Below are positions 7,675 through 9,830 of a stretch of 64,000 nt of DNA, piece after piece; within the stretch, counting starts at the first letter, position 1; each line of letters opens with the position of its first letter. The notes beneath the pieces are model-generated. The model searched no databases, was not told the DNA's origin, and was given only the letters and a program-made list of their open reading frames with translations. Origin of the DNA: Mumia sp. ZJ1417 (GTDB lineage: Bacteria; Actinomycetota; Actinomycetes; Propionibacteriales; Nocardioidaceae); the NCBI RefSeq assembly GCF_014127285.1, contig NZ_CP059901.1:310001-374000 (forward strand), written 5' to 3'. The position numbers were made by a program, and so were the translations under genes.

Positions 7675-8460
7675 TCACGCGGACGCCTCGACCTGGGCGG
7701 CGCGGCGAAGGACGGCGAGCGCGCGGCTGGGACGGTCGGTGATGATCCCCTCGACGCCGGCGTCGGCCGCGCGGCGGATCGCGGCGCGGGAGTTCGCGGT
7801 CCACACGTACGTCTCGAGCCCGGCGAGCTGGGCGCGGCGCACGTATGCGGAGGTGACCGCGCCGTGCCACGGGTTCACCGCCGACACCCACGCCTCGAGC
7901 GCGGGGTTGCGCGGGGTGTGGCGGACGAGCAGGCCGCGCGGCACGGCGGGCATCAGCCGCCCGAACGCCCGGAGTGCCTCGGCATCGAAGCTCTGCACCG
8001 TCACTGCGACGCCGGGCGAGAAGCAGCGCAGCACCTCGGCGACCTGGGCGACGAGGTGGGGCTGCGAGCCGGGGTTCTTGATCTCGAGGAGCAGCCCCAC
8101 CCCGCTCGCCCGCAGGGTGTCGAGGACCTGCTCCAGGGTGGGCACGGGTTCGCCGGCGTGTCCGGGCCCGAACCAGGACCCGGCGTCCAGGCGCCGAACC
8201 TCGTCGTAGGTGAAGGACGGGACGGGGTCGTTCGCGCGGCGCGGGAGGTGTCGGGCGACGTCGGTGGTGCGCGCGAGCGTCGCGTCGTGGACGATGATGG
8301 GCACCCCGTCGCGTGTGGACTGCACGTCGACCTCGACGGCATCGGCGCCCTTCGTGACCGCTGCGGCGACCGCGGCGAGCGTGTTCTCCGGCGCGACCGC
8401 GCTGGCGCCCCGGTGCGCGACGACCCGTGGCCGGCGCATCGTGGTGATCGGCTCGTTCAT
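7675..8460 (-). CDS. Glycerophosphodiester phosphodiesterase
   Basis: A 261-residue GDPD-type TIM barrel. AHRGASAVAPENT holds the catalytic histidine (H16) and metal-binding glutamate (E25). VEVDVQSTRDGVPIIVHDAT contains the second metal site and the second catalytic histidine, and LLLEIKNPG is the next conserved strand. The enzyme would hydrolyse glycerophosphodiesters to glycerol 3-phosphate and an alcohol. No signal peptide is seen, so it is cytoplasmic. It stands alone, convergent with the response regulator and divergent from dinB. Met8 is an alternative start. Confidence 0.93.
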   Translation of the reverse strand: MNEPITTMRRPRVVAHRGASAVAPENTLAAVAAAVTKGADAVEVDVQSTRDGVPIIVHDATLARTTDVARHLPRRANDPVPSFTYDEVRRLDAGSWFGPGHAGEPVPTLEQVLDTLRASGVGLLLEIKNPGSQPHLVAQVAEVLRCFSPGVAVTVQSFDAEALRAFGRLMPAVPRGLLVRHTPRNPALEAWVSAVNPWHGAVTSAYVRRAQLAGLETYVWTANSRAAIRRAADAGVEGIITDRPSRALAVLRRAAQVEASA

Positions 8461-8559
8461 GCGGCGAGCGTCGCGACCGATGGTGGAGCGGAGGCGAGGG
8501 CCAGGTGGACGGGAGGTGAAGGCTCGCTGAGTTCTGTTTCCGCCGCCTGGAGATGTATG

Positions 8560-8573
8560 CGAACATATGTTCG
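8560..8573. promoter_or_regulatory. LexA (SOS) box of dinB
   Basis: CGAACATATGTTCG is a perfect 14-base palindrome matching the actinobacterial/Gram-positive LexA consensus CGAAC-N4-GTTCG. It ends exactly where the favoured dinB ATG (8574) begins. LexA bound here would cover the core promoter and probably the transcript start. Recognised by eye only. Confidence 0.88.
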
Positions 8574-9764
8574 ATGAATGGAGAGGCGACGATCCTGCAC
8601 GCTGATCTCGACTCGTTCTTCGCGTCGGTCGAGCAGCGCGACGACCCGTCGCTGCGCGGGCGCCCGGTGCTGGTCGGGGGCGGGGTGGTCGTCGCGGCCA
8701 GCTACGAGGCCAAGGCGTACGGGGTCCGGACTCCGATGGGGATCGTCGAGGCCAAGGCGTTGTGCCCCGGAGCGGTCGTCGCGTCGCCGCGCTTCGAGGC
8801 GTACTCGGCGGCGAGCAAGACCGTCTTCGAGGTCTTCCGCGACACGACGCCGCTGGTCGACCCGATCTCGATCGACGAGGCGTTCATGGAGGTCGGCGGG
8901 CTGGCGCGCCTCGTCGGATCGCCCGAGGCGATCGCCGCGCGCCTGCGTGAGCGGGTGCGCGACGAGGTCGGGCTCCCGATCACGGTGGGCGTCGCGCGGA
9001 CCAAGTTCCTCGCCAAGATCGCGAGCGCGTACGCCAAGCCGGACGGGCTGCTCGTCGTCCCCGTCGACGGCGAGCGGGCGTTCCTGCACCCGCTGCCGGT
9101 CGAGCGGATGTGGGGTGTCGGTGCCAAGACCGGCGCGAAGCTGCGGGCACGTGGCATCGAGCAGATCGGCGACCTCGCGGCGGTGCCTCCGCACGCGCTC
9201 GCGGCGTACGTCGGGCGCGCCGCGGCCTACCACCTCCACGCCCTCGCCAACGGGCAGGACCCGCGACGCGTCGAGACCGGACGACGCCGTCGTTCGGTGG
9301 GGGCGCAGCGGGCGCTCGGCCGGCGACCCAAGGACATGGCCGAGATCGACGCGTCGCTCGCCGGTCTCGTCGATCGTGTCACGCGCCGGATGCGCAAGGC
9401 TGAGCGTGAGGGCCGTACGGTCACGCTGCGCCTGCGCTTCGACGACTTCACCCGCGCGACGCGCTCGCACACGCTGCCGCGTCCGACCGCCCGTACCGAC
9501 CGGGTCCTCCTCGTCGCGCGCTCGCTCCTCGACGTCGCCGCGCCGATGATCGCCGAACGTGGCTGCACGCTGGTCGGCGTCGCGGTGAGCGGTTTCGACA
9601 CGTACGAGGGCGTCCAGCTCGAGCTGCCTTTCGGCGAGCCGGGCTCCGCGTCGCTCGACCTCGCGCTCGACGACGTACGAGAGCGGTTCGGGTCCGACGC
9701 CGTGCTGCGCGCCTCGCTTGTGAAGCGCGGCCAGGGCTTCGCGATGCCCACCCTCCCCGACTAA
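8574..9764 (+). CDS. dinB: DNA polymerase IV (Y-family translesion polymerase)
   Basis: A 396-residue polymerase. Catalytic carboxylates are in ILHADLDSFFASVE (D11) and PISIDEAFME (about residues 102-103). A little-finger domain follows, and a C-terminal beta-clamp binding peptide QLELPF lies near residue 347. It copies past damaged bases. The ATG at 8574 is chosen over the in-frame ATG at 8553 because the LexA palindrome fills 8560-8573 and homology to other DinB proteins starts only after it. No Shine-Dalgarno precedes 8574, so the mRNA is probably leaderless. The AACATA at 8562-8567 could serve as the -10 element. Confidence 0.95.
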   Translation: MNGEATILHADLDSFFASVEQRDDPSLRGRPVLVGGGVVVAASYEAKAYGVRTPMGIVEAKALCPGAVVASPRFEAYSAASKTVFEVFRDTTPLVDPISIDEAFMEVGGLARLVGSPEAIAARLRERVRDEVGLPITVGVARTKFLAKIASAYAKPDGLLVVPVDGERAFLHPLPVERMWGVGAKTGAKLRARGIEQIGDLAAVPPHALAAYVGRAAAYHLHALANGQDPRRVETGRRRRSVGAQRALGRRPKDMAEIDASLAGLVDRVTRRMRKAEREGRTVTLRLRFDDFTRATRSHTLPRPTARTDRVLLVARSLLDVAAPMIAERGCTLVGVAVSGFDTYEGVQLELPFGEPGSASLDLALDDVRERFGSDAVLRASLVKRGQGFAMPTLPD

Positions 9765-9768
9765 CCCC

Positions 9769-9830
9769 CGGGTCACTCTCGCCCGCTCTCGGGTCACTCT
9801 CCGCCCGCTCCCGGGTCACCTTCCGCGGGC
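9769..9830. repeat. Tandem repeat of about 21 bases, core CGGGTCAC
   Basis: Three imperfect units start with CGGGTCAC at 9769, 9790 and 9812, each followed by a C-rich tail (CTCTCGCCCGCTC or similar). They fill the whole gap between the convergent dinB and alkylsulfatase genes. The same core, in the other orientation, recurs at 26747-26803 and at 25764-25773. This is possibly an interspersed element or a transcript-end structure. Confidence 0.7.

Follow-up and report, generated by a model that had tools for sequence, protein, structure and literature searches.

The described systems closest to the locus analyzed here come from mycobacteria and streptomycetes. The lexA mRNA of Mycobacterium tuberculosis has been described as leaderless (PMC2897130), and a study of the same species reports many leaderless transcripts with a TANNNT -10 element, as well as the extended -10 TGNTANNNT (PMC3898074). 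Mycobacterial genes such as recA are described as carrying an SOS box together with a RecA-NDp/PafBC promoter (PMC8223512, PMC5656591), the consensus of which is given as tTGTCRgtg-8 nt-TannnT (PMC5656591); two further papers treat the structure of PafBC (PMC6789036) and the mycobacterial polymerases DinB2/DinB3 (PMC10159617). In Streptomyces venezuelae, the LexA regulon is reported to include translesion polymerases, and the plasmid gene pvnz_37140, located ahead of a gene for DNA polymerase IV, is induced 15-fold by mitomycin and has a box, listed at -14, to which LexA binds (PMC9380542).

The window analyzed here, a continuous stretch of 64 kb from the genome of Mumia sp. ZJ1417, contains a dinB gene, the product of which matches the NCBIfam model NF003015 with 625.5 bits (cut-off 367) and has Pfam matches to IMS, IMS_C and IMS_HHH (Table 1). 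The genome holds three more Y-family matches, one of them adjoining imuA'. The intergenic region between dinB and the divergently oriented GDPD-family gene is 113 bp long, and right after the dinB stop codon (9764-9830) GGGTCACTCTC(C)GCCCGCTC occurs three times in imperfect form; the Mumia locus L029 has a GGTGACCCGCGAGCGG repeat resembling it near dinB. The actinobacterial LexA operator pattern CGAAC-N4-GTTCG is matched perfectly by the palindrome CGAACATATGTTCG, which, as the original prediction had it, ends at the base before the start codon, with zero gap between the end of the box at 8573 and the ATG at 8574-8576. The same prediction had noted the lack of a Shine-Dalgarno sequence for this ATG, and indeed there is none in 8554-8573, the nearest purine run being GGAG at 8549-8552, 21 nt upstream. 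The alternative in-frame ATG that it mentioned exists as well; the open reading frame that it begins spans 8553-9764 and would enclose the box. We rejected this codon as the dinB start because the Mumia orthologs L028 and L032 have no in-frame start at this place, and it also lies upstream of the predicted RNA start.

Table 1 Features of the dinB locus of Mumia sp. ZJ1417 (positions refer to the window)
Feature	Position	Strand	Remark
Divergent neighbour, glycerophosphodiester phosphodiesterase family	7675..8460	-	Pfam GDPD E 2.2e-49
Alternative upstream in-frame ATG	8553..8555	+	Judged not to be the start
TG of predicted extended -10 (TGC-GAACAT)	8558..8559	+	TG directly before box in 102/114 orthologs
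LexA operator (SOS box), perfect palindrome CGAACATATGTTCG	8560..8573	.	Kept, with at most 1 mismatch, in 114/150 anchored dinB orthologs
Predicted -10 hexamer GAACAT, within operator	8561..8566	+	Last T in 103/103 overlapping/abutting orthologs
Predicted transcription start, G8573 or A8574	8573..8574	+	6-7 nt after -10
dinB, DNA polymerase IV (NF003015/PRK03858 subfamily), 396 aa	8574..9764	+	ATG 8574, stop TAA 9762-9764

The perfect pattern CGAACNNNNGTTCG has a single site in the window, and with 1 mismatch allowed it has 5 sites compared with 4.16 expected, so that the bare pattern is no proof of an operator. Across the 4.19 Mb genome, 9 perfect sites were found compared with 2 for the reversed control, and two of the nine were judged to be intragenic. 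Three of the eight sites other than that of dinB are near lexA, recA and imuA', and further ones are near ruvC-like, alkB-like and transporter-like genes, named from their N-termini alone; lexA (TIGR00498) and recA (TIGR02012) are both present in the genome, at loci with boxes of their own, located 138 and 132 nt, respectively, before the predicted starts. Behind the first box of the lexA locus (L007, ~1501-1531), a second box-like sequence, CGAACATGTGTACG, closely follows, before lexA. The box of the transporter-like gene (G000:C1:2257915-2257928, L006:1501-1514) also has an abutting ATG, which opens a frame of 28 codons (counted by eye), and the TGA of this frame overlaps an ATG of the next gene, which has GAGGAG upstream as well. 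Among 147 genomes of the order, 145 contain at least one box and 82 at least one box preceded by TG, numbers that serve as background only. What raises the dinB site above chance is its placement together with its conservation; as such it is a common type of SOS box, and what is unusual is its location, which is conserved and mechanistically tight.

Three overlapping samples were searched with the DinB protein, namely 58 relatives, 293 genomes from the order and 394 from the class. All matches with E 1e-110 or better were accepted as orthologs, together with named Nocardioides and Pseudonocardia loci, and 150 of the resulting 152 loci were anchored on the conserved LHADLD stretch; L116 and L154, without this anchor, were dropped. 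The set also excludes L055 and L056, which are 46-48% identical, as well as the distant loci L015-L026, and L010-L012, which repeat the genes of L028-L030 and L029, were not counted. A box with at most 1 mismatch is present in 114 of the 150 anchored orthologs and perfect in 104, counts that do not represent independent events because the sets include close relatives; a degenerate box (2 mismatches) is found at that place in 3 of the 36 orthologs counted as box-less. In 95 boxed orthologs, an in-frame GTG begins with the final G of the box, in 8, Mumia sp. ZJ1417 included, an in-frame ATG directly follows the box, and in the remaining 11 the box is placed otherwise. The 103 overlapping or abutting cases carry the family labels f1, f2, f3, f4, f7, f16 and f23 or belong to a named Pseudonocardia. 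Such an alignment of dinB upstream regions had been proposed as a check along with the original prediction, and its outcome is favorable; the mycobacterial frame in which that prediction was put does not apply, since the nearest named relatives are Mumia, with 90-93% identical DinB.

The abutting ATG is common to the Mumia loci L028 and L032 and Mumia sp. ZJ1417. At the other Mumia loci, L029, L030 and L031, the dinB start codon is located 23-47 nt past the box, and dinB itself is therefore not leaderless there; at L029, GGGAGGG stands before the GTG 23 nt after the box. At L030 (1454-1504) and L031 (1460-1504), the abutting ATG opens frames of 16 and 14 codons, respectively, the TGA of which overlaps the ATG of dinB (ATGA), and at L115 and L118 of genus g7, a three-codon frame begins 3 nt after the box and ends with a TGA that overlaps the GTG of dinB (GTGA). 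In these four cases, it looks as if LexA would control a leaderless short frame coupled to dinB.

The palindrome of the operator makes its two halves equivalent for the LexA dimer, positions 7 and 8 being mirror-equal, and because of this symmetry, the two positions are expected to vary alike. On a tree of the 72 DinB proteins with the full gene available (69 boxed), position 8 of the box changed 11 times and position 9 twice, whereas positions 7 and 6, their respective mirror positions, did not change at all; given equal odds for each half, we calculate a probability of about 1 in 8000 for all 13 changes falling on one half. GAACAT ends in the fixed T7, which, beyond the overlapping and abutting orthologs, is kept in 7 of the other 11 and lost in 4, all of which belong to the 78 orthologs that are represented by upstream sequence alone and hence are off the tree. 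Taken as they stand in the alignment, there is an operator, it has a fixed place at the start codon, and its -10 half is constrained.

A different cause of this constraint can be imagined for the class with GTG, namely that both the RNA and translation start at an in-frame ATG or GTG at box position 8, so that the center of the box would be conserved as a codon and not as a part of the -10. Most orthologs of this class do have such an in-frame codon, at -7, but then T7 need not be fixed and ACAT centers would be equally good, yet they occur in 0 of 95; the ATAC-center orthologs L047 and L151 lose the codon and keep the GTG, and in Mumia sp. ZJ1417 the codon is out of the dinB frame. We therefore consider this alternative very improbable and return to GAACAT as the candidate -10.

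Compared with TANNNT, GAACAT agrees in the A and T only. At six other box-bearing repair or transporter loci of the Mumia sp. ZJ1417 genome, the dinucleotide before the box, read in gene direction, is AT, GT, CT, GC, AT and TT. If TGC-GAACAT is read as an extended -10, then +1 would be at the GTG, which is 6 nt after the hexamer in the class with GTG; in Mumia sp. ZJ1417, the spacing to the start codon is 7 nt, and RNA may accordingly start either at G8573, with a one-base leader, or at A8574. A generic consensus promoter scan gave no match at the site in Mumia sp. ZJ1417 (0.0 expected by chance), the sequence at the place of the -35 is TTCCGC, and it would thus be the extended -10 that carries the promoter. 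Two hexamers picked by eye were rejected, TATGTT inside the box, which is destroyed in every ortholog with an ATGT center, and TATGCG before the box, which has no final T.

The register of the -10 is indicated by two spacing rulers in the orthologs. Of the 114 boxed orthologs, 25 have a RecA-NDp motif matching at least 7 of 9 positions at a distance of exactly 8 nt from GAACAT, whereas the 17 other spacings have 0 to 3 each and 0.45 are expected at 8 nt from shuffled sequences; the GTC core occupies the corresponding place in 47 of the 114, the next commonest place having 15. In the Pseudonocardia ortholog L014, the motif scores 8/9. Similarly, in family f23, a -35 (at least 4 of 6 matches to TTGACA, mostly TTGGCA) is found at 17 nt in 14 of 20 orthologs and at most once at the other spacings tried. 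Because of these rulers, the -10 that had originally been placed at AACATA (8562-8567) is shifted one base to the left; its location within the operator stands. Mumia sp. ZJ1417 itself lacks the RecA-NDp/PafBC motif at this place, the 9-mer CGCCTGGAG scoring 3/9 against TTGTCRGTG, and PafBC control of its dinB was rejected on this account. The RecA-NDp pattern with at most 1 mismatch was counted 86 and 83 times in the Mumia sp. ZJ1417 genome compared with 12 and 8 for the reversed pattern, counts that we do not use as evidence. Upstream of recA (L008, minus strand), the SOS box has the hexamer GAACAG at its left end, and GTGTCGGTA is located 8 nt ahead of this hexamer; the spacing is that of the dinB orthologs, although GAACAG has no final T.

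The same layout is seen in orthologs without a box, 22 of 36 of which have a RecA-NDp motif with at least 7/9 matches and 14 do not, one sequence (L161 and L162, two contigs of one genome) being counted twice among the 36; under letter shuffling, the motif alone reaches this score in 15% of the shuffled sequences. In 19 of the 22, an in-frame start lies exactly 6 nt after an nAnnnT hexamer, although genus g20 supplies 15 of these 19 and 24 of the 36 box-less orthologs; of the other three, L013 has its start at 7 nt, L119 has an out-of-frame ATG at 6 nt, and L168 has no such layout. Because these orthologs keep the order motif-8 nt-nAnnnT-6 nt-start, the promoter frame stands without the operator and by itself predicts a leaderless start. 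The dinB orthologs of genus g20 (e.g., L054, L127, L142) keep the RecA-NDp motif, the -10 and the leaderless start without a LexA operator, as if their dinB were under PafBC alone.

These distances also bear on another arrangement, in which RNA would start upstream of 8553, LexA would act as a roadblock and ATG 8553 or 8574 would be translated without a Shine-Dalgarno sequence. An in-frame ATG at 8553 is available for it, and the boxes of recA and lexA, located more than a hundred nucleotides upstream as given above, mean that the SOS genes of Mumia sp. ZJ1417 are not all built like dinB. However, the box is exactly at the start in 103 of 114 orthologs, the distance from the -10 to the start is kept even where the box is missing, and ATG 8553 has no counterpart in the two Mumia orthologs already named, so that a leadered dinB mRNA appears improbable. 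Transcription beginning at or next to the ATG, as originally proposed, agrees with the comparative prediction, with the amendment that the ATG is 7 and not 6 nt past the -10; the broader proposal of a leaderless, SOS-controlled dinB mRNA likewise gains support from the comparison through the fixed -10 register, the one-sided variation, the spacings and the starts in box-less orthologs.

The arrangement is not confined to dinB. A phylum sample of 396 genomes contains the exact 18-mer TGCGAACATRTGTTCGTG at 25 sites, distributed over 20 genomes, and the frame opened by its GTG has at least 120 codons at 24 of them (42 at L194). Judged by the N-terminus, 13 of the 25 sites precede dinB, 7 of which were already in the ortholog set; the other 12 are all outside the class. 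Pfam searches with the products of 10 of these 12 identified two PHP/DNA_pol3_alpha (dnaE2-like), three radical SAM, one IMS (ImuB-like) and three HNH proteins, with L213 also having many HTH matches, and L206 gave no match; L210 and L215 are dnaE2-like and radical-SAM-like by eye. By hand count, GTC occupies the RecA-NDp place at 19 of the 25 sites. The HNH-type proteins at L207, L213 and L214, outside the class, begin at the TGCGAACATGTGTTCGTG element as damage-repair polymerases do, and possibly represent unrecognised damage-induced nucleases or mobile elements.

In the own genome, the bare box is found only 9 times against 2 for the control, and the contact between box and start codon might accordingly be a chance or inherited juxtaposition without regulatory meaning. 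But the arrangement is kept across several families, the box varies on one side only on the tree, and the contact recurs before other repair genes outside the class, which makes this explanation hardly credible. A wider generalization, to which we would give an even chance, is that Actinomycetota carry a reusable composite of ~35 bp, consisting of a RecA-NDp-like GTC, 8 nt to the -10, and TGC-GAACATRTGTTC-GTG, in which activation of the PafBC type and repression by LexA would share one short stretch with the -10, the RNA start and a leaderless start codon. It would serve dinB and, outside the class, dnaE2-like, IMS-family (ImuB-like), radical-SAM and HNH genes, with both damage pathways acting on one leaderless promoter; of the two halves, Mumia sp. 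ZJ1417 would have lost that for PafBC and retained that for LexA, and the box-less relatives the reverse.

For Mumia sp. ZJ1417 itself, we consider it highly probable, judging from the comparative sequence data, that 8558-8576 constitutes a composite promoter-operator-start element that yields a leaderless or one-base-leader, LexA-repressed dinB mRNA. RNA polymerase would use the extended -10 TGC-GAACAT inside the operator and begin RNA at G8573 or A8574, and this mRNA would be translated from ATG 8574. LexA on 8560-8573 would cover the -10 and the start point and block initiation, and upon DNA damage, self-cleavage of LexA on RecA filaments would free the promoter. In this model, for which we infer the RNA start, the binding of LexA and the induction of dinB by damage, the operator, the -10, the RNA start and the first codon would be one object, the parts of which cannot drift apart. 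It offers a base-exact, testable account of how a mutagenic polymerase may be silenced and released, points to promoters suited to a joint test of repression by LexA and activation by PafBC, and provides a rule by which annotated dinB start codons of actinobacteria can be corrected.

How does this element compare with the known systems? The M. tuberculosis lexA is likewise an actinobacterial SOS gene described with its RNA start at the start codon (PMC2897130), but the case of Mumia sp. ZJ1417 involves a Y-family polymerase with an operator ending at the start codon, and its own lexA, with the distant box, is unlike that of M. tuberculosis. The leaderless promoters of M. tuberculosis also place the RNA start at the start codon under the rule of the -10, and the paper mentions neither LexA nor DNA damage by name (PMC3898074). 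The mycobacterial dual-control genes resemble many dinB orthologs in LexA repression, PafBC activation and the tTGTCRgtg-8 nt-TannnT motif; in recA, however, the two controls are described as acting on two promoters, P1 and P2 (PMC8223512, PMC5656591), whereas in many dinB orthologs one -10 would serve both, and the dinB of Mumia sp. ZJ1417 differs from these genes in having no PafBC motif. In a limited search of the open-access literature, we found no report of a LexA operator spanning the -10 to the start codon of dinB or of one promoter shared with PafBC. Of the published examples that we came across, pvnz_37140 is closest to having a box against a start codon, since its box, given its listing at -14 and its length, would end at the predicted start codon and in this resembles that of the Mumia sp. 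ZJ1417 dinB; the chromosomal dinP of S. venezuelae is listed with dnaE2, with a box at -68, and the word leaderless is absent from the text (PMC9380542). Both components, leaderless SOS mRNA on the one hand and dual control by LexA and PafBC on the other, are thus known, and it is their predicted superposition on one dinB promoter that is new.
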